From Haloactinopolyspora alba (GTDB taxonomy: Bacteria > Actinomycetota > Actinomycetes > Jiangellales > Jiangellaceae): a stretch of 64,000 bases of DNA. The stretch's first letter is position 1, and the number at the start of each line of letters is the position of its first letter. The stretch is from the NCBI RefSeq assembly GCF_003014555.1, contig NZ_PYGE01000005.1:186001-250000 (forward strand), in the 5' to 3' direction. A program made the translations under genes and the position numbers. The notes below the pieces were generated by a model. It did not search any database, had not been told where the DNA came from, and saw only the letters and a list, made by a program, of their open reading frames with translations. Positions 11,993-46,601 of this stretch are shown here, one piece after another.

Positions 11993-13273
11993 GTGACCGC
12001 GACGACGCCCACCGAGGCCAACGCCGGCCTGCTGCGGTTCGCCACCGCCGGCTCGGTCGACGACGGCAAGAGCACCCTGATCGGGCGGCTGCTCTTCGAT
12101 TCGAAGTCGATCTTCACCGACCAGCTCGAGAGTGTCGAACGCACCAGTCAGCAGCGGGGTGACGAGTACACCAACCTCGCGCTGCTGACCGACGGGCTGC
12201 GGTCCGAGCGTGAGCAGGGCATCACCATCGACGTGGCCTACCGCTACTTCGCGACGCCGCGGCGCACGTTCATCATCGCCGACACGCCCGGGCACGTGCA
12301 GTACACCCGCAACATGGTCACCGGTGCGTCTACCGCCGACCTGGCCATCGTGCTGGTCGACGCGCGTAAGGGGCTGGTCGAGCAGAGCCGCCGGCACGCG
12401 TTCATCGTCTCGTTGCTGCGGGTTCCGCACCTGGTGCTGGCGGTCAACAAGATGGATCTGGTCGACTGGTCGCAGGAGGTCTTCGACGAGATCCATCGCG
12501 ACTTCACCGCCTTCGCCACCAAGCTGGACATCCCGGATCTGACGGCGGTGCCGATCTCGGCGCTGCAGGGCGACAACATCGTCTCCCGTTCCGAGAACAT
12601 GCCCTGGTACGAGGGGTCGTCGCTGCTGCACCATCTCGAGAACGTGCACATCGCCAGCGACCGCAACCTGGTCGACGTGCGGCTGCCGGTGCAGTACGTC
12701 ATCCGGCCGCAGTCCATGCAGCACGCCGACTACCGCGCCTACGCCGGTCAGGTGGCCGGCGGCGTGTTGAAGCCCGGCGACGAAGTCATGGTGCTGCCCA
12801 GCGGTCTCACCACGAAGATCACCTCCATCGACACCGCCGACGGGCCGGTGGAGGAGGCGTTCCCGCCGATGTCGGTGACCGTCCGACTCGAGGACGAGAT
12901 CGACGTCTCGCGCGGTGACATGATCTGCCGGCCGCACAACCAGCCGTTCGTGGCGCAGGACATCGACGCGATGGTCAGCTGGATGACCGACGCACCGCTC
13001 GTGCCGGGACAGAAGCTTGCGATCAAGCACACCACCCGGTCGGCACGGACAGTGGTCAAGGACATCCAGTACCGGCTGGACGTCAACACCCTGCACCGTG
13101 ACGACGATGCCGGTGAGCTGGGGCTCAACGACATCGGCCGGGTCCGGCTGCGCACCACCGTCCCGCTGCTGGCCGACGAGTACCGTCGGAACCGGATCAC
13201 CGGCGGGTTCATCCTGGTCGACGAGACCACGCATCGCACCGTCGGCGCCGGGATGATCACGTCGGCCGGCTGA
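11993..13273 (+). CDS. cysN: Sulfate adenylyltransferase subunit 1 (GTPase)
   Basis: The EF-Tu-like GTPase subunit of ATP sulfurylase is 426 residues long. Motifs are P-loop AGSVDDGKSTL, DTPGHVQYTRNM (G3) and NKMDLVDW (G4). It ends after the GTPase/beta-barrel domains with no fused APS kinase, unlike mycobacterial CysNC, and no separate cysC is seen here. GTG 11993 is preferred over a TTG at 11978 because GGGAG (11980-11984) lies eight bases ahead. The downstream HAD gene overlaps by one base. Confidence 0.95.
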   Translation: MTATTPTEANAGLLRFATAGSVDDGKSTLIGRLLFDSKSIFTDQLESVERTSQQRGDEYTNLALLTDGLRSEREQGITIDVAYRYFATPRRTFIIADTPGHVQYTRNMVTGASTADLAIVLVDARKGLVEQSRRHAFIVSLLRVPHLVLAVNKMDLVDWSQEVFDEIHRDFTAFATKLDIPDLTAVPISALQGDNIVSRSENMPWYEGSSLLHHLENVHIASDRNLVDVRLPVQYVIRPQSMQHADYRAYAGQVAGGVLKPGDEVMVLPSGLTTKITSIDTADGPVEEAFPPMSVTVRLEDEIDVSRGDMICRPHNQPFVAQDIDAMVSWMTDAPLVPGQKLAIKHTTRSARTVVKDIQYRLDVNTLHRDDDAGELGLNDIGRVRLRTTVPLLADEYRRNRITGGFILVDETTHRTVGAGMITSAG

Positions 13274-13959
13274 TGCAGGCACGGGCGCACGTCGTCTGGG
13301 ACTGGAACGGCACGCTGTTCGACGATTTCGACATCACCGTGCGCGCGGCGAGCGCCGCGTGCGTCGAGATCGGCGCGGGCCCGGTGGACCACGACACGTA
13401 TCGGCGGTCGTTCACCCGCCCGGTACGGTCGTTCTACGAACGGTTGATCGGTCGCGGACTCGTCGACGACGAGTGGCACGCGCTCGCCGAGGTCTACCAC
13501 GCGCACTACCGCCGGCTGCTTCCGAACGCCCGGCTGCGCGGTGAGGCGGTGGACGTGCTCGCCCGGCTGGCCGACGCGGGCGTCACGCAGTCGCTGCTGT
13601 CCATGAGCGAGCACGACGAGCTGCTCGAGATCGTCGGGGCACACGGCATCGGCGAGACGTTCCTGGTGGTCGAGGGCGCGCACCCGGAGACACGCGCGGC
13701 CAGCAAGCACGAGGCGCTGCGCCGGCACGTGGCCGGGCTCGAGCAGTACCGCGGCATGCCGGTGCGTGCCGAGGACGTCGTGCTCATCGGCGACACACTC
13801 GACGACAGCGAAGCGGCCGCGTCGGTCGGCGCGGCGTGTGTGCTGCTCGCGGACGGTTCCTACGACCCGGCGCACGCGAGCGAGCGTGGCCTGGCCGTGG
13901 AGGCGGACCTGGTCGCGGCGGCCGAAAGCGGTCTCCGGTTGGTTGCCGCTCCCGAGTAG
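13273..13959 (+). CDS. HAD family hydrolase (phosphatase)
   Basis: The 228-residue protein has the HAD fold. Motif I is DWNGTLFDDFD near residue 10, with nucleophile Asp and an Asn where DxDG is usual. A Ser-containing motif II lies in QSLLSMSEHDE, a Lys in SKHEALRRH, and motif IV is IGDTLDDSEAA. A helical cap sits at about residues 20-95. A small phosphate ester is the likely substrate, in the phosphoglycolate-phosphatase/Gph branch. Its start overlaps the cysN stop (TGATG), so it is transcribed with the sulfate genes; a link to sulfur metabolism is not shown. Confidence 0.82.
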   Translation: MQARAHVVWDWNGTLFDDFDITVRAASAACVEIGAGPVDHDTYRRSFTRPVRSFYERLIGRGLVDDEWHALAEVYHAHYRRLLPNARLRGEAVDVLARLADAGVTQSLLSMSEHDELLEIVGAHGIGETFLVVEGAHPETRAASKHEALRRHVAGLEQYRGMPVRAEDVVLIGDTLDDSEAAASVGAACVLLADGSYDPAHASERGLAVEADLVAAAESGLRLVAAPE

Positions 13960-14336: not shown

Positions 14337-14816
14337 TTCGACATCGCCGCGTTGCGAGTCGACGACTCCGGCCTGCCCCCGCTGCACTCGCGCGACGGTC
14401 TCGCCGAGGCGCGGGTCGGGGATCATGCGCTTGCGGTGGGCGCGGACGAGGCCGTGGCCGTGGGATCGATCGAGGCTCTGGACGATCCTGCCACGGTGAC
14501 CGGCGGTTCCGAGGTCGCGGTCGTACGGACCGATGCAGACGTGCCACCGTCCAGCGTGGGCGGCCCGCTGGTCAACGACCGGGGCGAGGTGCTCGGCGTC
14601 CTCACGGTCACGGATGCGGGCACGGGGGCGGCCGTTCCGGTCGACGTCGCACGGGACGCCGCCCTGGGCATCGTGCGCGCCGAGTCGGCCTGGTCGTCGC
14701 GGACGGGCGGCGTCATGAAACAGCCTCGGCATGTACTTCGACCATGCGCAGGTAGGTCTCGAGCGCGTCGCGGTCGGCCGGTCGCCGGTCGGCCGGTGTG
14801 GGTGCGCGGTCGCTGA
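14337..14816 (+). pseudogene. Fragment of an HtrA-like trypsin-type serine protease
   Basis: From FDIAALRVDDSG (14337) to about 14716 the plus strand reads like the second half of a DegP/HtrA protease domain: RVGDHALAVGADEAVAVGS, then VGGPLVNDRGEVLGVLTV. Family members have GNSGGPL at the catalytic Ser; here the position reads SSVGGPL, so the nucleophile appears replaced by Val. The catalytic His region, signal peptide and PDZ domain are absent, and there is no start codon with a ribosome binding site. The frame runs on to 14816 without further homology and overlaps the next gene. Confidence 0.55.
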
Positions 14817-15876
14817 TGCCCATGCGTCCGGTCAGGCCACGTGCGCTGCGTCGGACGATGGCCGTCGACGTTCGGCCGCTGGTCGACCTGGATGACCGAG
14901 CCACCAGCCGTGCCAGCGACGACTCCCGGCGCACGCTCGACACCGGCGCGAGGCGGTCGACGGTGCCGCTGACGACGCGCAACCCGGCGGTAATGCCCAG
15001 GTCGTGGGTGAGCCCCTTTGGCAGGGGAGTGCCAAGCAGCGCACGGGCCCGCGCGAGCACGATGCCCAGCGCCGGTCCGGCGCCCCAGCTGTGTGCCCGG
15101 TCGACGAGCTCGTCCCAGTCGGCGATGCGCCGGGCGAGCTGGTCGACGTCGAGGAGCAGCAACATCCGGTGTGCCCCGGTCAGCGCCGCGTGCAGCGCGA
15201 CGTGCGCGACGGTGTCGACGGGGTCGAGCGTCCAGGTCGAGGCGCCGCCGACGGGAACCCGGACGCGGCGGTCGAGCAACTCGTCGGTGCGGACGGTGAA
15301 CTCTCGCCGGGTGGACGCCATGTTGATCACCGACCAATGCAGGTCGAGCAGGGTGCCGTGCGGACCGACCCAGTGCATCTCGCCCGGCGTGTCCGGATTG
15401 GCGAGCATGTCGTCGTAGTCGGCGACCTCCCAGCCGGCGTCCAGGAGTCGCGCTGATGCTGTGCGCAGTGACGACGGCGAGATCAGCACGTCCACGTCGG
15501 TGTAGCTGCGCAACCCCGGCGCCGGGTGTGCGTGCTCGGACAGTATCGGGCCTTTGAACGTCGCCCAGCCGATGTCGCCGAGGACGCGGCCGAGGTCGTC
15601 GAGCGCCAGGGTGGCGGCGAGATGGCGGCCCATGGCAGCGTCGCGGTCCGGCTTGAGCAGCGCAGCCAGCGGTGGATCACCCGAGCGCAGCAGGACGTGG
15701 GCCAGTGGAGCGACCCGGTGGTGCCGGACGGCGCCGCGGAACTCCCGCCGGACGGCGCTGTCGTCGGGCAGTTCGGGTGCCCGGCCTCGGCAGATGTCCC
15801 TGACAGCGGTCGAGATCGCGCGGCGGGACCGTAGCGAGGTGACACCCGGTGGCGGGCGCCGAGCGGAACGTGCCAT
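14713..15876 (-). CDS. Nucleotidyltransferase-family protein (PF14907-like)
   Basis: The 387-residue protein resembles the uncharacterised nucleotidyltransferase family NTP_transf_5. The signature TFKGPILSEHAHPAPGLRSY is followed by TDVDVLIS (metal-binding Asp pair). Further on are MHWVGPHGTLLDLHWSVIN and a helical C-terminal half. Family members occur in polysaccharide loci and beside HPr-kinase-like and PqqD genes, including some lasso-peptide clusters. The substrate is unknown. ATG 15876 follows CTGGGGGGCAC, the G-run motif shared with other genes of this locus; in-frame codons upstream are ignored for that reason. Confidence 0.8.
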   Translation of the reverse strand: MARSARRPPPGVTSLRSRRAISTAVRDICRGRAPELPDDSAVRREFRGAVRHHRVAPLAHVLLRSGDPPLAALLKPDRDAAMGRHLAATLALDDLGRVLGDIGWATFKGPILSEHAHPAPGLRSYTDVDVLISPSSLRTASARLLDAGWEVADYDDMLANPDTPGEMHWVGPHGTLLDLHWSVINMASTRREFTVRTDELLDRRVRVPVGGASTWTLDPVDTVAHVALHAALTGAHRMLLLLDVDQLARRIADWDELVDRAHSWGAGPALGIVLARARALLGTPLPKGLTHDLGITAGLRVVSGTVDRLAPVSSVRRESSLARLVARSSRSTSGRTSTAIVRRSARGLTGRMGISDRAPTPADRRPADRDALETYLRMVEVHAEAVS

Positions 15877-15879
15877 GTG

Positions 15880-16090
15880 CCCCCCAGCATCATGAGACCG
15901 GGCAGCCCCTCGCCGCCGCGGCCGATCCCTCATCGTAGACCGATATCTCGAATGTGCAGTGTTGATGACAATGCAGAATGGTTCGCTGAGGTATCGACGC
16001 AATCGTGGACTACGGGTAGATTCCTCGCAGAGATTGTTCTCCGGGCGGGGGGTCCGGAGTTCTGCGGGGCACACGGTGCCTTGGGGGGCA
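15880..16090. promoter_or_regulatory. Divergent promoter region with G-run leaders
   Basis: For the leftward gene, TACGAT (minus strand, 15937-15932) is a possible -10 and a G6 run (15885-15880) precedes the ATG. For the rightward gene, TAGATT (16017-16022) is a possible -10. Its leader holds G6 at 16047-16052 followed by TCCGGAG, and CCTTGGGGGGCA (16079-16090) directly before the ATG. No gene was recognised in this gap. Confidence 0.45.
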
Positions 16091-29211: not shown

Positions 29212-31095
29212 TCAGTGCAACAGTTCCCGCCGCGCCGCGCCGCGCCGCGCGTAGTCCGCCAGCCACGTGTTCGCGGTGGCCACTCGCGCCAGCGCGGAGG
29301 CCGACCCGGTGAACGTTCCGGATCGCAGCGCGGCCACGGCGGCGAACAACTGTTCGTCGTCGAACATCGGATGAGCGCCGGCGTTGGACTCGACCCACGA
29401 CGCCAGGCGTGAGGCGTACGTGGGCCTGGTGCGAACGAGCAGGTCAGCGGGGAAAGCACTCGCGCGGGTCGCCAAGCGGTCCGCCGGGCCCGGGACGTTC
29501 AAGCGAGTGCGGAGCAGCGAAGCTCCTTGCATCGCGGCACGGCGGGCGCCCCGCCGTACGCCGGACACCGGGTGCTCGGCCGTCATCGCCAACCATTGCG
29601 CAAGAAAGGAGGTGTCGCCGGACCAGTAGAGGTGGCTCAGCCTGTCCGGGGGGTTCCCGTCATCGCTGCGCGGAACGTCTGCCGTTTGCGGAAAGACGGT
29701 TCGGTGAATCCGGAGGTACAACCGGCCGTTTCGTCGCTGCGACGGACCGAGGCGGGCCGCATAGCTCAGAAAGCGGCCGTCCATGAACGGCGTTTCGACC
29801 CGGATTCCTCTTCTCCGCATCGCGCTGACGACCATGTTTCCCCAGCGCGTCTGCCGGTTCGTCACCTGCCAATAGGTGATCATGTCCGATCGTCGGGAGA
29901 AGTCCCACGGTTCGAGGGAGGCTCGGATGCTCGCGCGGAGGATCGCATCGATGTCACCGCCGGCCCGATCGGCCAGGTAGGTCTCCGCCTGTGTGACAGC
30001 GCCCGCATACCGACCGTGGACGTGCGCAGCGACATCGTCGAGCGACCGTAGGCCGTGCGCCTTTTCGTCTCCCCAGAGCGGCCCTCCCGCGTGGCCGTTG
30101 ACCACGACGTCAGCGAACTGATGAATGGCGTCGTGAAACCACGAGTCGTAAAGCTCCGACGGCGCGTGAGCGCCATCGAGTCTCTCGGCTCCGGCGGACA
30201 TCTCGGGTAGGATTCGGTCGCCCGTCAGGGGCATGGTGGTGTGCGGCATGCCGAGTCGTTCGGCGATCGCGGTCGCGATCTCGACTTCACGTTGACCGCG
30301 CGTCCCGTAGGTGAAGGTCGACGCCCCCGACCCGAGGGCGGCAAGGGCGCAGGCGATGGCCCTGCTGTCCAGCCCTCCACTGAGGCTCAGGGCGAGCCGA
30401 CCTCCCTCTCGGCGGTCGATGATGTCGCGCATGACGACGTTCCAGGTGTCGCGGAACGTGTCGACCGCGGCGACGTCACTCATCGTCTCGCCCGAGGGAG
30501 CGAAAACGGGCTGCGATCTCACCTCGCCGACCCCGCCCGGCCGCCATGTCAACTCACCACCGGCCGGCAGAATGGAAGCTTTGGCAAGAGTGGTTCGCTG
30601 CCCCAGCGGATGGAGCATCGCCAGATACTCGACCATTCCCTGCATGTCGGGATCGGCCGGTGCACCGAGACTGACAAGTGAGGCCAGATGGGTGGAGACA
30701 CAGAGGTCGTGCGCTCCCGCGAACCAGAAAACCGGAACGACTCCGGCGCCGTCATTTCGGACCGTGATCGTGCCGTCCGGTTCCGCGGCGACGACGACAT
30801 GGCCCGCTTCGGCTCCAACGGCGGCGCTCGGCACCGTGTCCGACACGGCTTTCGACAAGCCAGATTTCGTGAGCGCGACAGCGGCCATGAGATTGTCGCC
30901 GGTGCCGGAAACCACGCCTTCGCCGGCGCCGACGGGTTCGGTGCTCACCAGCGCCGCCGTCGCGTTGGATGTCGAGACGACCTCGTGCGCCATATGTCCG
31001 GGAACCGAGTGAGCTGCGTGCTCGACAACCGTCCGACGTCGTCGAGCCGGGCCCTCCGCAGAGGGCCCGGCGACGACGAGCAATTCCTTCGACAA
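29212..31095 (-). CDS. Asparagine-synthase-related protein lacking the glutaminase Cys
   Basis: The 627-residue protein has the C-terminal ATP-PPi synthetase domain of asparagine synthetase B. LALSLSGGLDSRAIA is at about residues 234-248 (PP-loop), followed by ASTFTYGTRGQREVE and ETPFMDGRFLSYAARLGPS. The N-terminal domain (1-200) looks like a degraded class II amidotransferase, but Met1 is followed by Ser, not the nucleophilic Cys2. Glutamine hydrolysis is therefore unlikely. Related proteins form amides or lactams in antibiotics and lasso peptides, or occur in glycan loci. It is the last gene of a leftward run of surface genes. Confidence 0.82.
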   Translation of the reverse strand: MSKELLVVAGPSAEGPARRRRTVVEHAAHSVPGHMAHEVVSTSNATAALVSTEPVGAGEGVVSGTGDNLMAAVALTKSGLSKAVSDTVPSAAVGAEAGHVVVAAEPDGTITVRNDGAGVVPVFWFAGAHDLCVSTHLASLVSLGAPADPDMQGMVEYLAMLHPLGQRTTLAKASILPAGGELTWRPGGVGEVRSQPVFAPSGETMSDVAAVDTFRDTWNVVMRDIIDRREGGRLALSLSGGLDSRAIACALAALGSGASTFTYGTRGQREVEIATAIAERLGMPHTTMPLTGDRILPEMSAGAERLDGAHAPSELYDSWFHDAIHQFADVVVNGHAGGPLWGDEKAHGLRSLDDVAAHVHGRYAGAVTQAETYLADRAGGDIDAILRASIRASLEPWDFSRRSDMITYWQVTNRQTRWGNMVVSAMRRRGIRVETPFMDGRFLSYAARLGPSQRRNGRLYLRIHRTVFPQTADVPRSDDGNPPDRLSHLYWSGDTSFLAQWLAMTAEHPVSGVRRGARRAAMQGASLLRTRLNVPGPADRLATRASAFPADLLVRTRPTYASRLASWVESNAGAHPMFDDEQLFAAVAALRSGTFTGSASALARVATANTWLADYARRGAARRELLH

Positions 31096-35528: not shown

Positions 35529-37658
35529 TCATGGCGAGTCGCCGAGCGGTGACACGTCGACCGTGCCGAAGGTCGCGTCGACGTGGTGTGCGATGAGCAG
35601 AACGCCGCCGGTGTCCGGGCTGTTGTCGTCGGTCACGCTCAATGACCAACCCTGGGGTTCGCTCGTACCTTGCGGCCACCACTTGTAGCTGTAATCCGTG
35701 CCCCCGGCGACGGACTCGACACGTGCCTTCATGATGTACGTCGTTCCGAAGTCCCAGGGGGCGCCGTCGCGGCTCAACGGCCACCCGTCGTTGCCGATGA
35801 GTGCGTACCGCCCGCTGTCGTACCACTGGTACCAAGCGAAGGCACCGGTCGGGTACCAGCCGACCGCGGGTTCTTCCGTGTCGCGTGGTGTGTGGCCGTT
35901 CCAGCGCAGCGCGAGGCCGACGACGGGCGAGCCGCTTTGGGGCGTGCCGTAACCCGGGGTGAGACCGCGCACGGTCACCGGGACTTCGACCTCGTAGTTG
36001 TCCCAGCTGCTGTCTCCGACAGCGACAGTGCGGTCGTAGCCTGGCTCGACGATCGTGAGCCCACCGCTGCCGCTGGTCCACTTCCCGTCGACGACCTGCG
36101 CGACGTCGTTCGGATTCTGCGACGAGCCCCACGAAGTCGAATAGGGCAGCGACGGCGATCGGACGTCCTTGCGGACCGTGACCGACTCGGTCGCGGACTC
36201 GCCCGTCGTGTCGGTCGCTGTGATCGCGACCGTGTTGGCTCCGCTGCTCAAGTCGTCGTACGGAATCTCGACATTCACGTCGCCTTCGCCGTACAGACGA
36301 CGCAGGTCCGATCCGATCGAGAGGCCGACCGGAGCGTTGCCGTTGAGCCGGTAGTTCGCGCTCTGGATACCGTCCGCGTCGCTCACGTTGCCCAGAACGT
36401 TCACCCACCGCTGGCTGACACCGGCGACACCGAACGTCTGATCGTCGCCGTACCAGACATCCACGGACGGCGGATCGACTGAAACCTGCTCGAACGTTGC
36501 GGTGACGGATCGTGGTGCATCCATCATCACGACGACCGACTCGTCGGTTCCTGATGCGTCACCCGACCAGCCGGCGAAAGTCCAGCCTTCGGCTGGCGCC
36601 GCCGTCAAGGTGACGTCGGTGCCGTCCGGATACGTACTGGCCGACGGTGACCGCTGCACCGTGCCGTCGCCGTTCACCGAGACTGTCAGCGCGTACTCGT
36701 CTTCTTCCGGCGGTGTGTCTTGGTGGAAGGTGGCGGTGACGGTGTGGTCGGTGTTCATGGTGATGGTGGTGGTGGGGTCTGGTCCGGTGGTGTCGCCGGT
36801 CCAGCCGGTGAAGGTCCAGCCGTTGGCTGGTGTGGCGGTGAGGGTGACGTCGGTGCCTTCGGGGTAGGTGGTGTTGTCGGGGTTTCGTGTGATGGTGCCT
36901 TGGCCGTCGGTGGTGGTGGTGAGGGTGTGTGTGGTGGCGGTGTTTCCGTCTTCGGGTTCGATGGGTGCGGCGGTGTCGAAGAAGTAGTCGATGTCGGCGG
37001 TGAAGGTGGGGTAGGGCGAGCCGTTGGCGGCGAAGGGGCCGATGTGGGTGGCCTGGATGGTGTGGTTGATGGTTTCGGCGGTGATCCAGGTGGTGCCGTC
37101 GGTCGAGTGGGCCAGGGTCCAGGTGTCGCCGGTTCGGGTGAGTCGGAGTTGGGATTCGGTGCCGGCGGTGATGGTTTCGCGCAGGAGTGTGGTGGTTTTT
37201 CCGTTGACGGTTTTGGCGGCGAACATGTTCAGGCTGCTGCCGTCGGAGTGGACCTCGAAGCGCATCCAGTTGGTGGCGTCTTGTTCGACGAGGATGCCTT
37301 GGGTCTGGTATTTCGCGGTCGGCACGGACAGGAACCGGACGTGGGCTTGGAAGTCGTCGTTGGTGACGGGTTGGGTGGCGCGTAGTGCGCGGTTGGTTCC
37401 CCAGGGGTCGTAGTTCGTGCCGGAGGGCACGGACAGGCTCAGACGGGCGTTGCTGGTTCCGGCGCCGGGGAAGGCGACCGTTCCTTCACCTGCCGGGTCG
37501 GTGACCGTCCACAGCGACGGGTCGAGCACACCACTGGCGAAGTCGTCCGACACGAACGCTGCACCAGAGGCAGTCGCCGCATGCGGAGACTGTGCGAGAA
37601 GCAGGGAGCTCAGCAGGGCGAGGCCGGTACCGAGCACCCCCGTTGTCGGACGTCTCAT
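35529..37658 (-). CDS. Secreted multidomain protein with InlB-type B-repeats
   Basis: The 709-residue exported protein has a signal peptide at residues 1-31 (GLALLSSLLLAQSPHAATAS). A concanavalin-like DUF1349-type domain (about 35-235) follows, then two B-repeat/MucBP-like units (about 243-312 and 322-391, each with GTDVTLTA-P and GWTF-GW-GD). An Ig-like segment (about 400-490) and a C-terminal jelly-roll-like domain come last. It may bind or process cell-surface glycan. The DNA for residues about 70-313 is unusually C-poor on the plus strand compared with its flanks, a sign of mosaic origin. The start follows GGGGGAGGG; no sorting signal is seen. Confidence 0.78.
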   Translation of the reverse strand: MRRPTTGVLGTGLALLSSLLLAQSPHAATASGAAFVSDDFASGVLDPSLWTVTDPAGEGTVAFPGAGTSNARLSLSVPSGTNYDPWGTNRALRATQPVTNDDFQAHVRFLSVPTAKYQTQGILVEQDATNWMRFEVHSDGSSLNMFAAKTVNGKTTTLLRETITAGTESQLRLTRTGDTWTLAHSTDGTTWITAETINHTIQATHIGPFAANGSPYPTFTADIDYFFDTAAPIEPEDGNTATTHTLTTTTDGQGTITRNPDNTTYPEGTDVTLTATPANGWTFTGWTGDTTGPDPTTTITMNTDHTVTATFHQDTPPEEDEYALTVSVNGDGTVQRSPSASTYPDGTDVTLTAAPAEGWTFAGWSGDASGTDESVVVMMDAPRSVTATFEQVSVDPPSVDVWYGDDQTFGVAGVSQRWVNVLGNVSDADGIQSANYRLNGNAPVGLSIGSDLRRLYGEGDVNVEIPYDDLSSGANTVAITATDTTGESATESVTVRKDVRSPSLPYSTSWGSSQNPNDVAQVVDGKWTSGSGGLTIVEPGYDRTVAVGDSSWDNYEVEVPVTVRGLTPGYGTPQSGSPVVGLALRWNGHTPRDTEEPAVGWYPTGAFAWYQWYDSGRYALIGNDGWPLSRDGAPWDFGTTYIMKARVESVAGGTDYSYKWWPQGTSEPQGWSLSVTDDNSPDTGGVLLIAHHVDATFGTVDVSPLGDSP

Positions 37659-42245: not shown

Positions 42246-42752
42246 TCACATGCCCGATCCGTCCTGCTCGGGCTGCTCGCGTGCCGAACGCGCTGCGCCG
42301 TAGAGCACGGCACCTCCCGCAGCCAGCGCGCCGCCGAGCGCCAGCGTGCGGGTGACGTCACCGACGCCCGTGTCCGGCAGCTCGCCCGCGGTCGTCTCCC
42401 GGTCCGGCGAGTCCGGCTTCCAGGGCTCGTCGTGATCGGGCGGCTTCACGGCCGTCGGCTCACTGTCGGGCTCACCGGGTCTGTCGGGTCTGCCGGGCTT
42501 GTCCGGCCGGGGGTGGTCCTGCTCAGGAGGCTCCGGCTCGTGCGTGGGCTCGTGATCCTCCGGCGGCTCGGTCGGCTCCGGCGGTTCCGGGGGTTCCGGC
42601 GGCTCGGGTGGTTCGCCGCTGGGCGAGGCGGCGGTCGCCGGGGTCAACGCGATCGTCGTGACCGTCGGTACGGCCCACGCTGCGCCGCCGAGTGCGGCCC
42701 CCCTGGCAAGCATCGCCCGTCGGCTCATGTCTGTGGAACGGTTCTGCTGCAT
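42246..42752 (-). CDS. Small LPXTG cell-wall-anchored Pro/Glu-rich protein
   Basis: The 168-residue exported protein has a signal sequence of Tat flavour (SRRAMLARGAALGGAAWAVP). A rod-like middle is rich in EPPEPPEP, HEPEPPEQD and PDKPGRPDRPGEP. The sorting signal LPDTG is followed by a hydrophobic stretch (TLALGGALAAGGAVLYGAA) and Arg. Sortase would attach it to peptidoglycan. The start is uncertain: GTG 42785, ATG 42779 and ATG 42728 are also in frame. ATG 42752 gives a normal signal peptide and follows TTGGGGCG. It heads the leftward surface operon. Confidence 0.72.
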   Translation of the reverse strand: MQQNRSTDMSRRAMLARGAALGGAAWAVPTVTTIALTPATAASPSGEPPEPPEPPEPPEPTEPPEDHEPTHEPEPPEQDHPRPDKPGRPDRPGEPDSEPTAVKPPDHDEPWKPDSPDRETTAGELPDTGVGDVTRTLALGGALAAGGAVLYGAARSAREQPEQDGSGM

Positions 42753-42871: not shown

Positions 42872-42886
42872 TACCATGACCGGGTG
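42872..42886 (+). promoter_or_regulatory. -10 element six bases before the PqqD-like start (leaderless)
   Basis: TACCAT (42872-42877) is followed by six bases and the GTG at 42884. Initiation at or beside the start codon is expected. No Shine-Dalgarno is present. Confidence 0.45.
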
Positions 42887-43165
42887 ATCAGAGCCAGCTC
42901 CGTGCCAGTGGCCGCGACGTCCGTGCGGGAACTCGAGATCGACGGCGAGATCACGCTCTTCCACGAGCCGACGCAGACCGCGTTGGTGCTGAACACGACG
43001 GCCAGCGACGTCTGGCGCCTGATCGACGGGCACCGTTCGGCCGCGGACATCGCCGCGCTGCTCGCCAGCTCCTACGGGGCCGATCCCGAGGTCGTGCGCA
43101 CCGATGTCGAGTCCGCGCTCGACACGTTGTCCGGGCACGATCTCGTCGCGACGGCGCCGGGGTGA
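42884..43165 (+). CDS. PqqD family protein
   Basis: The 93-residue winged-helix protein of the PqqD type includes ITLFHEPTQTALVLNTTASD, VWRLIDGHRSAADIAALLAS and LDTLSGHDLVATAPG. PqqD domains bind leader peptides of RiPP precursors and present them to modifying enzymes. Stand-alone relatives also sit beside HPr-kinase-like genes in glycan loci. No precursor peptide gene was recognised nearby. The start appears leaderless. It overlaps the next gene by four bases (GTGA). Confidence 0.85.
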   Translation: MIRASSVPVAATSVRELEIDGEITLFHEPTQTALVLNTTASDVWRLIDGHRSAADIAALLASSYGADPEVVRTDVESALDTLSGHDLVATAPG

Positions 43166-43974
43166 GCGGACGGCTCGTCGTCGAGGTCGCCGGCGTGTCG
43201 ATCGAGGTCGTCGGCGCCGACACCACGGCGCTGCGCTCGGTCCTCGGTGACGTGCTCACCCCCGACGACGCGCCCGCCGAGCGAGTCGTCGACCTCGGTG
43301 ACGCCGGTCCGTCCGGTGTCGAGACGGTGCTGGCGGCCGTCGCGCGGGCCGCGGTCGAGCCCGCGCGGGGCCTGCTGCTGCACGCGGGAGCGGTCGTCCG
43401 GGACGGGCGCGCGGTGCTCTTCCCCGGTGCGTCCGGGCAGGGCAAGAGCACGCTGACGGCGGCCTGTCTGCAGCAGGGCTTCGACTACCTGAGCGACGAG
43501 CTCGTCGCCGTCGACCTGGACACCGGCACCGTGACCGGCTGGCCCCGTCCGCTGATGCTGACGCCGTGGTCGGCGGCGACGCTCGGGCTCGACGGGGCCG
43601 ACGGGGCGGAGGGGGTCGCGGCCGTGGGGGCCGGGAAGACGGCGGTCGCGGCCGCGGCACTCGGCGCGGCGCCGGTGCGTTCGTCCGTCGAGGTGGCGCA
43701 CGTCGTGCTGGCCCGCCGCGACGGTGGGGCGGCGCCGCCGGTACCGGTCGCCGCCGGTGACGTGCTGCGCGAGGTGCTGGCGGCGTCCTTCAACCACTAC
43801 GTCCACGGCGCCCGGGCGTGGCAGGCGGCGGCACGGCTGGCGGGGTCGGCGCACGGCTGGCTGCTGGGCGTCGGGGACGTCGCCACCGCGGCCGACGCCG
43901 TCGCGGCGCTGCTGGACGGCTCTGGCGCCGCGGCGTGGCCGGAGGGGTCTGGCGCCGGAGGGCCACCGGCCTGA
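43162..43974 (+). CDS. HPr kinase (HprK)-like protein
   Basis: The 270-residue protein has a P-loop kinase fold close to the C-terminal half of HprK: LLLHAGAVVRDGRAVLFPGA, then SGQGKSTLTAACLQQG (Walker A near residues 89-97), YLSDELVAVDLD and a proline-rich WPRPLMLTPWS. The HprK N-terminal domain is absent. Homologues in lasso-peptide clusters phosphorylate the precursor C-terminus; others have unknown targets. Coupling to a PqqD protein suggests a small peptide or carrier substrate (inference). Confidence 0.82.
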   Translation: MSGRLVVEVAGVSIEVVGADTTALRSVLGDVLTPDDAPAERVVDLGDAGPSGVETVLAAVARAAVEPARGLLLHAGAVVRDGRAVLFPGASGQGKSTLTAACLQQGFDYLSDELVAVDLDTGTVTGWPRPLMLTPWSAATLGLDGADGAEGVAAVGAGKTAVAAAALGAAPVRSSVEVAHVVLARRDGGAAPPVPVAAGDVLREVLAASFNHYVHGARAWQAAARLAGSAHGWLLGVGDVATAADAVAALLDGSGAAAWPEGSGAGGPPA

Positions 43975-43987
43975 TACTTGCTCGGTG
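43973..43987 (+). promoter_or_regulatory. -10 element overlapping the HprK-like stop (leaderless GT2 start)
   Basis: GATACT (43973-43978) overlaps the stop codon of the upstream gene and lies six bases before the GTG at 43985, which has no Shine-Dalgarno. A separate leaderless transcript for the glycosyltransferase is plausible. Confidence 0.45.
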
Positions 43988-44827
43988 ACCAGCATCGTCG
44001 TGCCTGCCCACAACGAAGAACGCGTCCTGGGCCGGCTGCTGACCGCTCTGTTCGCCGACGCGCGGCCGGGTGAGCTGGACGTCGTCGTGGTGGCCAACGG
44101 CTGCACCGACGCGACGGCCCAGGTGGCTGCCGGGTTCACCGGCGTGCGCGTGCTCGAGACTCCGGTGCCCTCGAAGAGCGCGGCGCTGCGTCTCGGTGAC
44201 GAGGCCGCGACCTCGTTTCCGCGGCTGTACGTCGACGCGGACGTGGTGCTCGGCGCCGCCGACGTCCGAGCGCTGAGCGAGGCGGTCACTCGCCCGGGTG
44301 TGCTGGCCGCGGGGCCGGTCCGGGTGCTGCCGATGGGCGGGGCCGAGATGCGGGTGCGCTGGTACTACGACGTGTGGCAGCGGCTGCCCGCCGTCCGCGA
44401 CGAACTGTTCGGCCGCGGTGTGGTGGCCGTCGGCGAAGCGGGACACGCGCGGCTGGGTGGCTGGCGCGACGTGATGTCCGACGACCTGATGGTGACGGTG
44501 GCGTTCGGCGCTGACGAGCGGCTGGTCGCGCCCGGCGCGCGGGTGGTGGTCCACCCGCCGCGGACGTACGCCGACCTGATGCGCCGCCGGGTGCGGGCAA
44601 TGACCGGCAACGCGGAACTCGCACTGGGTGCGCCGGTTGCGCCGGGTGCGCGGCCGGCGCCCCGGACCGGACTGTCCGACCTGGCCCGGCTCGCCGCACG
44701 GCGTCCTGCATCGACGCCGAAGGTCGCTCTGTTCGCCGCGACGGCAGCGCTGGCGCGGCTACGGGCGCGGCGGGCGGTCCGCGAAGGGGATCGCACATGG
44801 CTGCGTGACGAGAGCAGCCGCACCTGA
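43985..44827 (+). CDS. Glycosyltransferase family 2
   Basis: The 280-residue GT-A protein has SIVVPAHNEERVLGRLLTAL, VVVANGCTDATAQVA, SKSAALRLGDEAA and LYVDADVVLGAADVR (DxD). The downstream MSDDLMVTVAFG is a second acidic motif, and PRTYADLMRRRVRAMTGN is the RxxRW-like end. No membrane span is evident, unlike cellulose-synthase-type GT2s. It follows the HprK-like gene by 10 bases and closes the rightward module. Confidence 0.87.
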   Translation: MTSIVVPAHNEERVLGRLLTALFADARPGELDVVVVANGCTDATAQVAAGFTGVRVLETPVPSKSAALRLGDEAATSFPRLYVDADVVLGAADVRALSEAVTRPGVLAAGPVRVLPMGGAEMRVRWYYDVWQRLPAVRDELFGRGVVAVGEAGHARLGGWRDVMSDDLMVTVAFGADERLVAPGARVVVHPPRTYADLMRRRVRAMTGNAELALGAPVAPGARPAPRTGLSDLARLAARRPASTPKVALFAATAALARLRARRAVREGDRTWLRDESSRT

Positions 44828-44850: not shown

Positions 44851-45399
44851 TCATGTGAGCCCCTGTTCCTCAGCCCAACGCGCGAACCCTCCTGGCCCGA
44901 ACGGGAGTCGGTACTTGTCCTTCATGAGATCGTCGGCAATCGCCGAGACCAGCGGAACAGTCAGCAGATCCTTCCTGATCGCCTCGCACAACAACCCGAG
45001 CGTGCGTCGTATCGTGACGCCGCGTTTGGTCGCGACCTGTACAGCCACGCGGTCGTCGACCACGGCTACTGCGTCCGCCATCGTCTCGGCCAGTGCGAGA
45101 ACGCCGCACTCTCCGATGTTGCGTCGGCCGGGTCCAACCAGCCGCTGTTCGTAGTAGGCGAACGCGGCCAGTTGCTCTGGGCTGTCCAACGCAACGACGT
45201 CGATCCATTCCGCTTCGATGACGGCCTTCAGATGCACGTGCTGAGTGCACCCGTTGGTCAACTCAGCCGCCACGACATCGGGGACGAGCACCTGCACATC
45301 GCCAAGGATCGCTTTGAGTACGCCGAGCCATTGGCTTCGGGCGAAGTGGCTCAATGGACCGGTGTCGAGCACATAGGCACTCTGGTGGTCCACGGTCAT
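44851..45399 (-). CDS. PIN-domain protein (putative toxin ribonuclease)
   Basis: The 182-residue protein has the PIN fold acidic pattern: Asp in YVLDTGPLSHFA near residue 11, Glu in VAAELTNG near 46, NIGECGVLALAETM near 95 and VVDDRVAVQVA near 113. Such Mg-dependent RNases are the toxins of many type II toxin-antitoxin pairs. It overlaps the upstream XRE-ImmA gene by four bases, which fits an antitoxin-first arrangement. It is longer than typical VapC (about 130 residues); the extra C-terminal part ends in PFGPGGFARWAEEQG. Confidence 0.78.
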   Translation of the reverse strand: MTVDHQSAYVLDTGPLSHFARSQWLGVLKAILGDVQVLVPDVVAAELTNGCTQHVHLKAVIEAEWIDVVALDSPEQLAAFAYYEQRLVGPGRRNIGECGVLALAETMADAVAVVDDRVAVQVATKRGVTIRRTLGLLCEAIRKDLLTVPLVSAIADDLMKDKYRLPFGPGGFARWAEEQGLT

Positions 45400-46499
45400 G
45401 AGGTGATGGCCCAGATCTCGGCTCCCGGGTCTGGGATCGCAGGAAGATCGGGAAGGCCGTCCTGGTCGAACGTCCCGAGAAGGAGCCCGAGCGCACGATC
45501 GCTCGTCACGGTTTCACGCCGGTACAGGCGGAGGACGGCTTGTTCGTACACCCGAGGGAGTGACACCGGTTCCAGCTCGTGCGGGACCACGAGGTTCTTC
45601 TCCACGATGTCTGCCTTCTTCGTCCGTGCACGTCGAACATCGTCTGCCTCTTGTGCGTCCACCAGGCCTGTCTCGGCGAGGCGGCGAGCAAGGGTGGCCA
45701 TGTCCACCCGATAATGACTTCCGGCGCGAATCGCTGTGTCTCGCAATGAATCGTCCGCGATAGCGGCCCACTGCGCCCACCGATTCCGTAGATCCGCTTC
45801 CGGCAGGAGAACGGCGCGCGCGAAGCGATCGAGGCGCGCCTCGAGCGCTTCGGAGTCGGCTGCGTCGACCCGCCAATCGGTGGTGTAGGGGTCGGCGATC
45901 AGATAGTGCCCCAGTTCGTGCGCGAGTGCGAGGCGCCGACGCCCGACATGCAGGTCGCCATTGACGACGCTGACGCCGCCCTCGTCGAGTAGTACGGTTC
46001 CGGCGTCCGCTCCGGTGGTGAGGTGGATCGCGAAAGGCAGTAGACCGATCGTTGTCACGAGCTGGGACAGGTTGTGAGCTGGCTCGTCGGGGGACAGTCC
46101 AAGGAGACCGCGTGTCGTCATCGCGAGTGCGTCCGCCTCAGCCAGCGTTGCAGGTGGCCGTGCCTCTTCCGGTGGGTTCGAGATCAACCCGGACGTCTGG
46201 TCAACGACGAACTCGACATCGCGGACGATTCGATCCAGCTCAGTGTCGATCTGCTGCGTGGCTGCGCGATCCTTCGACTGGCGATACGAGATGATCGGCT
46301 GCGGACCGGGGTCGACGAACCACTCGACACGACGGCCCAGTTCCCGGGCGATCGCGACAAGCTCCACTGCGGTGACGCGCCGCGTATCGGTCTCGATCTT
46401 CGCAAGCGCACTGCGATCGAGACTCACCGTAGCTGCCAGCTGCGACTGAGTCAGTCCAGACTCAGTGCGCGCCTCCGTCACGCGCTCACCGATCGTCAT
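45396..46499 (-). CDS. XRE-HTH / ImmA-IrrE metallopeptidase fusion
   Basis: The 367-residue protein has an N-terminal Cro/C1 HTH (about residues 5-60, SGLTQSQLAATVSLDRSALA). The ImmA/IrrE (COG2856) domain includes the zinc motif HELGH at 194-198, with E-x-RLDRFARAVLLP downstream. Relatives cleave repressors on DNA damage (ImmA, IrrE) or act as antitoxins to PIN or other toxins. Here it precedes and overlaps a PIN gene, so it may repress the operon and neutralise or process its partner (inference). ATG 46499 is chosen from the HTH alignment. Confidence 0.85.
   Translation of the reverse strand: MTIGERVTEARTESGLTQSQLAATVSLDRSALAKIETDTRRVTAVELVAIARELGRRVEWFVDPGPQPIISYRQSKDRAATQQIDTELDRIVRDVEFVVDQTSGLISNPPEEARPPATLAEADALAMTTRGLLGLSPDEPAHNLSQLVTTIGLLPFAIHLTTGADAGTVLLDEGGVSVVNGDLHVGRRRLALAHELGHYLIADPYTTDWRVDAADSEALEARLDRFARAVLLPEADLRNRWAQWAAIADDSLRDTAIRAGSHYRVDMATLARRLAETGLVDAQEADDVRRARTKKADIVEKNLVVPHELEPVSLPRVYEQAVLRLYRRETVTSDRALGLLLGTFDQDGLPDLPAIPDPGAEIWAITS
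46445..46466. repeat. Inverted repeat inside the 5' end of the XRE-ImmA gene
   Basis: ACTGAGTC (46445-46452) and GACTCAGT (46459-46466) are perfect 8-bp arms around six bases, starting 33 bases inside the coding region. It could be the autoregulatory site of the XRE protein, or chance from the codons for LTQSQ. Confidence 0.35.
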
Positions 46500-46601
46500 G
46501 TGTGCGATTCTAGAACAGTGCTGGATGGATCCGAAAGAGATCTCGACAGGCAGGCACCATCGGCTGCGATCAGCCATGCTGGGCGGCATGAGGCGGCCCG
46601 A

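Follow-up and report, generated by a model that had tools for sequence, protein, structure and literature searches.

A PqqD-HprK-glycosyltransferase module that probably modifies a divergently encoded Tat-type surface protein in Haloactinopolyspora alba

Introduction

What might a PqqD-type peptide-binding protein, a kinase related to HprK and a GT2 glycosyltransferase do together when their genes stand tightly packed beside a polysaccharide locus? An earlier note on the stretch of DNA analysed here (64,000 nucleotides from Haloactinopolyspora alba, referred to as the window) had proposed that these three genes, together with an NTP_transf_5-like gene and an asparagine-synthase-like gene in the same locus, are a reused peptide- or carrier-modifying set, akin to that of phosphorylated lasso-peptide clusters, acting on surface polymer assembly. 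We followed up this proposal in the window, in the 22 genomes sampled from the window's order, which consists of one family, and in more distant bacteria. The best reading of the data is that the module probably represents a system resembling the LPP system of Bacillota (Popov et al. 2026, PMC13381572) that works on Tat-exported proteins by means of an RRE, an HprK-like kinase and a nucleotidyltransferase, with the export signal doubling as the RRE-binding leader.

Results

Profile searches bore out the three adjacent genes, the coordinates of which had been given correctly. The first gene (42884 to 43165, + strand; an alternative start at 42908 is possible) encodes a discrete PqqD-type RRE, a peptide-binding adapter (PF05402, E = 5.6e-15), and a genome-wide search identified it as the sole PqqD of the window genome; its nearest solved chain is TbiB1, a lasso-peptide RRE (5v1u/5v1v, E = 6.7e-5). 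The second gene (43162 to 43974, + strand) encodes a P-loop kinase of the type of the C-terminal half of HprK. The top NCBIfam match of this kinase, TIGR04352 (HprK_rel_A, E = 3e-25), scores 88.8 bits, below the model cutoff of 200, and only sub-threshold models matched. Among 19 homologues, including some from Proteobacteria, H74, the P-loop residues G94-K95-x-T97 and E113 are invariant and D112 is nearly so, and the AlphaFold model (pLDDT 88.4, pTM 0.88) retrieved PEPCK (E = 1.9e-5) and HprK/P (E = 2.8e-3), which share a kinase superfamily, in a Foldseek search. The third gene (43985 to 44827, + strand) encodes the GT2 glycosyltransferase (PF00535, E = 1.3e-11) and likely starts at 43985, past the kinase stop; in relatives, its orthologue also comes after the PqqD-HprK pair. 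The module proteins found in 13 genomes, in all of which the window PqqD is conserved, show approximately 51 to 73% identity to those of the window.

The earlier note saw no precursor and overlooked a likely substrate gene just upstream. This gene (42246 to 42752, − strand) lies divergently upstream of that of PqqD, a position that it occupies in each of the 13 module genomes. Its product, 168 aa from the MQQN start, appears to consist of a Tat-like signal, a Pro-rich stalk, an LPDTG anchor and a transmembrane segment. The sortase-type LPDTG motif (42369 to 42383, − strand) precedes the C-terminal hydrophobic segment, and the stretch from residue 135 to 163 matches the LPXTG anchor model TIGR01167 at 16.9 bits (cutoff, 15.9); the protein scores 17.9 bits with Pfam model PF00746, under its cutoff of 20. 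With an LPXTG motif and a transmembrane segment, the product thus has the predicted features of a sortase-anchored protein. Its assignment as a Tat substrate is made at the level of motifs (an N-terminal RR motif, a hydrophobic region and AxA) and of weak profile matches, including one to TIGR02811.

The conserved leader of this protein, SRRAMLARGAALGGAAWAVPTVTTIALTPATAASPSG (42615 to 42752, − strand; leader stretch TDMSRRAMLARGAALGGAAWAVPTVTTIALTPATAAS), comprises the Tat-like signal and a proposed RRE-binding segment, and its 90-bit profile match is unique in the window genome. Within the hydrophobic region, the residues WAVP (42666 to 42677, − strand), a W-x-x-P followed by x-V, fit the RRE motif published for lasso and LPP systems, [Y/W]xxPx[L/V/I/F/A], or more widely W/Y/LxxP (PMC12710340; PMC13381572). 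The W and P of this motif are experimentally required in StsA-StsC, and WxxP binding has been validated for StsC-StsA and PbaB1 (PMC12710340; PMC13381572). Both residues are invariant in the nine leaders aligned here, the leaders have W-x-x-P-x-[V/I] in common although their mature parts differ, and [W/Y]-x-x-P-x-[V/I] is present in 20 of 20 compared leaders; L113, which is outside this set, has no W. Every compared leader of the window's family also carries the Ser of an (S/V)PS(G/P) motif 16 residues past the motif Pro. A conserved C-terminal Ser, as in lasso precursors, is absent from the Tat protein. RRE-guided precursors characteristically combine a conserved leader with a variable core. 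It is of note that the WxxP motif had been spotted before it was counted; the leader profile, however, was built from the window's family alone, and tests with this profile are therefore free of that post hoc problem.

Within the family, the kinase is found in 13 of 22 genomes, and PF14907, the family to which the NTP_transf_5-like gene belongs, is found in the same 13 and in none of the other 9 (Fisher p = 2e-6, with phylogeny ignored and for family genomes that are not phylogenetically independent). Every kinase-positive genome has exactly one strong match to the Tat leader (82 to 99 bits), which in all 13 lies next to the kinase; the remaining 9 genomes lack one. Two family genomes have an additional weak match of 22 to 24 bits.

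The clusters of the relatives, eight of which were mapped completely and the others in part, place PF14907 in a wider context. Most relatives have two separate PqqD-HprK sets, a lasso set (set 1) and the PqqD-HprK-GT2 genes (set 2). Set 1 adjoins cysN (11993 to 13273 in the window) and contains PqqD, a cyclase, B2, an HprK-like kinase and one or two precursors of approximately 44 aa with Y-x-x-P leaders and ends of the form ...GG-x-(L/I)S; further along, an ABC exporter and PF14907 stand side by side in most relatives. In these relatives, set 1 is a complete phosphorylated-type lasso cluster like those of paeninodin and pseudomycoidin, whose C-terminal Ser is phosphorylated by the kinase and receives hexoses on that phosphate from the nucleotidyltransferase (PMC8498205). 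The kinship with phosphorylated lasso clusters suggested previously is thus substantiated, in that the relatives' PF14907 belongs to an actual lasso cluster.

In the window, the NTP_transf_5-like gene (14713 to 16074, − strand) was confirmed as encoding a psmN/LppN-like nucleotidyltransferase (PF14907, E = 6.2e-38, with homology from near 15885), and it has an intact KG..R..D.D motif and 62 to 67% identity to its relatives. The relatives' lasso precursor, B2 and cyclase were not detected by tblastn in 124 kb of the window genome, and the statement that the window has no B2 protease holds. Likewise, there is no orthologue of the relatives' ABC exporter at the window region, and no pseudogene remnants of the lasso cluster were found between 13.9 and 16.1 kb. 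These searches indicate that the window genome lost set 1 but retained its PF14907 gene, perhaps because the Tat-PqqD-HprK-GT2 module still needs it. Consistent with such a need, the nearest neighbours of the window PF14907 in a tree with one lasso-type sequence for comparison, on a long branch, are the nucleotidyltransferases of two distant Tat-PqqD-HprK loci, L105 and L110 (support 96/94). With every lasso gene but PF14907 gone from the window region, it could be argued that PqqD, HprK, GT2 and PF14907 together are a functionless and decaying remnant of the lost cluster. This is very improbable, as 12 relatives have the PqqD-HprK-GT2 genes in addition to a separate PqqD and kinase of the lasso cluster, and as frames are open and motifs intact in 13 genomes, with PF14907 itself intact and conserved.

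Two further observations concern the lasso genes. At the place where relatives have the lasso cluster, the window has a HAD-type phosphatase gene (13273 to 13959, + strand). In G018 (C23:237517-239605) and G016 (C23:220567-222515; L031-L038), a second lasso-like precursor of 56 to 57 aa has a Y-x-R-P leader and the end ...GGFS, lacks B1/B2 of its own and is encoded divergently to an Asn-synthase-like gene of approximately 570 aa.

The association of leader and kinase extends far beyond the family. Of 396 sampled genomes from the phylum, 22 have a related kinase, and all but one of these lie outside the window's class; a further search at class level yielded a few more. Run against loci of other classes, the family-built leader profile matched 13 times, with scores of 14.8 bits or higher, at 11 loci, and for 12 of these 13 matches the kinase is no more than 1.9 kb away; no match reached 8 bits in background sequence (800 kb) from three module-carrying genomes. 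Among the best 14 distant kinase loci, a leader was identified by profile in 11 and by eye in L110 (YAAP), and none was detected in L112 and L137. A scan of 1.49 Mb revealed ten RR signals with WxxP, every one at a kinase locus, with a small number of ordinary RR signals as the baseline; a strict search for Tat signals in general, meant to show how common WxxP is, yielded too few true ones. By BLAST, the leaders of the distant Tat proteins are 40 to 69% identical over approximately 25 to 45 aa, and the mature parts are mostly unrelated, with the alignment running into the mature part for a few pairs. These mature parts have no common domain: some (L108, L110, L133) are rich in Pro and have a TG-type anchor, and others are Cys-rich, Gly-rich or of other kinds. 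Most of the distant leaders have a Ser or Thr at +12 to +16, L106 has none in that stretch, and the phospho-acceptor is not conserved across all distant substrates.

As to the neighbouring genes, PqqD is close in nearly all distant loci and PF14907 is present in roughly half, being absent near L108, L133, L134 and L136; a lasso cyclase or B2 is found in L108 only. Several distant loci lack both PF14907 and GT2, and some have GT/Wzx neighbours. The genome with locus L108 (G139) has a GT2 orthologue beside the PqqD-HprK pair (E = 5e-68). At L109 and at L136, a single PqqD-HprK locus encodes two Tat-leader proteins that differ from one another, which suggests that one modification set may serve several substrates.

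Could the Tat protein be a mere frequent neighbour at a common cell-surface locus, with the kinase acting on another peptide? Contact between PqqD and the leader is something that we infer, the distant mature parts share no domain, and in some relatives small secreted proteins are also encoded downstream of the module. We nevertheless consider this unlikely, as the association spans classes and phyla with one leader copy per genome, and as the leader is conserved beyond the needs of Tat, with an invariant W and P, despite the variable mature parts. Instead, the constant presence beside the module of a gene for an exported protein whose signal bears an adapter-binding motif suggests that the module probably decorates that protein before export.

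A single-sequence scan of genome contigs returned one relative, which is betaproteobacterial. This locus (L026) and those of Sphingomonas (L140) and Vibrio (L139) are annotated or can be recognised as HPr-rel-A loci, and all three encode a protein with an RR signal directly upstream of PqqD or the kinase. The proteobacterial leaders are without WxxP, and hence an RRE motif there, if any, must differ.

We next consider the polysaccharide locus of 25 to 30 kb (Wzx, Wzy, GTs and a pyruvyltransferase), which the module borders in 12 of 13 genomes. Such a setting would be expected if the module modified a carrier or initiator of the adjacent polysaccharide pathway; GT/Wzx neighbours at some distant loci and the occurrence of Bacillota LPP clusters in capsule loci (PMC13381572) point the same way. 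However, the module is INDEPENDENCE from polysaccharide in the congener G001, where the order is lasso cluster, ABC exporter, PF14907, Tat gene, PqqD, HprK and GT2. This block was read across two contigs (L045/L046; C99 and C72) that overlap by 434 bp at 99% identity, in an assembly that is fragmented and 99% complete, and searches of G001 found no orthologue of either the GT4 or the Wzx flippase from the polysaccharide locus. The arrangement implies that in the other genomes the polysaccharide locus sits between PF14907 and the Tat gene and that the module does not need that locus. As far as these two markers go, the genes occur without a polysaccharide locus, a situation that the earlier note had named as incompatible with its reading, and the action on surface polymer assembly that it suggested is not supported. 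Other kinase loci adjoin non-glycan genes, such as those for phosphate uptake (pst) in Sphingomonas and for phosphonate in Vibrio, and the sole constant partner is the Tat-leader protein. A role in the polysaccharide pathway therefore seems doubtful, and from gene order the module looks independent of polymer assembly. The three genes are probably a protein-modifying module for the Tat/LPXTG protein, involving phosphate, sugar and Tat export, rather than polymer-assembly enzymes.

The asparagine-synthase-like gene (29212 to 31095, − strand) was confirmed as such (PF00733, E = 9.5e-18), with the PPi-loop SGGLDSR and no Cys at position 2. We rejected it as a member of the module on account of its separate position and patchy distribution: it is next to GT2 genes or glycosyltransferases in only approximately half of the module genomes. 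Of the co-occurrence with the PqqD-HprK pair that had been put forward for both genes, the part concerning PF14907 (13/13 versus 0/9) thus stands, and that concerning the Asn-synthase-like gene does not. Within the polysaccharide locus, the gene at 35529 to 37658 (− strand) encodes a large secreted protein in which divergent InlB repeats accompany a DUF1349/GH43_C2-like domain; orthologues of this protein reach 1131 aa in relatives. In G001, the stretch from the lasso kinase to the ABC exporter includes a PIN-like gene and, at 1554-3002 of C72, one resembling argininosuccinate synthase genes.

Discussion

The nearest described system to the window module is LPP, which has a discrete RRE, an HprK-like kinase and an NTP transferase and needs no cyclase; its precursors have a conserved N-terminal [Y/W]xxPx motif and a variable rest, and its clusters are often found beside phosphorylated-lasso clusters (PMC13381572). 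The window has the same three components, with the NTP transferase 27 kb away (it is adjacent in G001). The LPP kinase phosphorylates core Ser3 of LppA (PMC13381572), which by our count lies 15 residues past the motif Pro, compared with 16 for the Ser in the window's family. In contrast to the LPP leader, YxxPxVLxHQxIxFETxxS, that of the window is a Tat-like signal that shares WxxPx[V/I] only; genes for a SipW-like peptidase (LppS) and an MsbA-like exporter (LppD) do not adjoin the window module, and the substrate proposed here is a larger, predicted wall-anchored protein. In view of the differing leader and the lack of an adjoining peptidase and exporter, the module would work like the LPP system without being a member of it. 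Moreover, the lasso precursors of the window's family have YxxP and the module has WxxP, the reverse of the situation in Bacillota.

Two other systems share components with the module. The HPr-rel-A system (TIGR04352 kinase and TIGR04353 PqqD, annotated with a PF14907 neighbour) has the same combination of PqqD, HprK-like kinase and PF14907, but the TIGR04352 score of the window kinase is far from the 384.5 bits of betaproteobacterial L026, the window PqqD scores 23.5 bits against a TIGR04353 cutoff of 35, and the window adds GT2 and an LPXTG substrate. In the literature searched, we found no paper describing the HPr-rel-A system or PF14907. Phosphorylated and phosphoglycosylated lasso peptides (paeninodin, pseudomycoidin; PMC8498205) likewise arise through an HprK-like kinase, which phosphorylates Ser, and a nucleotidyltransferase, which extends the phosphate with hexoses; the window, however, is without a lasso precursor, B2 and a lasso-type cyclase, and the RRE and kinase of the module are separate paralogues.

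Based on these comparisons, we propose that PqqD attaches to the signal peptide of the Tat/LPXTG protein at its W-x-x-P-x-V segment and would keep the preprotein in the cytoplasm. In this it would resemble REMPs such as DmsD and TorD, chaperones that bind the H/C regions of Tat signals (PMC3316669), in being a cytoplasmic reader of the hydrophobic region that holds a preprotein for modification, although PqqD is a winged-helix RRE and belongs to another family. The HprK-like kinase would then phosphorylate the preprotein, perhaps on the invariant Ser of (S/V)PS(G/P), and PF14907 and/or GT2 may attach a sugar to the phosphate. The finished, folded protein would leave by the Tat pathway, with its signal cleaved at AxA, and LPDTG would fix it to the wall. 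The precedent of the REMPs also allows a simpler scheme, in which phosphorylation of the signal region merely times export as a form of quality control and no sugar is added, with GT2 and PF14907 serving other substrates. The lack of both in several distant loci fits such a scheme; its probability seems low, since PF14907 co-occurs with the kinase in every module genome of the family and adjoins the other genes in G001 and at several distant loci.

It is conceivable, and we put this forward tentatively, that the protein of the window belongs to a widespread class of surface or secreted proteins of Actinomycetota and Proteobacteria (the latter with a divergent leader) whose Tat signal doubles as an RRE-binding leader and which are phosphoglycosylated as folded proteins before export by a RiPP-type adapter, an HprK-like kinase and a nucleotidyltransferase/GT2. 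The proposal suggests a substrate for uncharacterised, database-annotated sets of PqqD, HprK-related kinase and PF14907 and offers a simple reason for the presence of such kinases near capsule and lasso clusters. If true, RRE-guided modification would extend from small peptides to exported proteins, and one signal peptide would have two readers, the RRE and the Tat translocase. It further predicts that WxxP and YxxP separate the two coexisting RRE pathways, with the roles of the motifs exchanged relative to Bacillota.

Immediately behind the module, a gene for a probable PIN-domain-like protein (44851 to 45399, − strand; identified by eye) overlaps the end of one for an HTH/ImmA-type metallopeptidase regulator (45396 to 46589). 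This pair (44851 to 46589, − strand) is not conserved in relatives and looks like a mobile insert of the toxin-antitoxin type.
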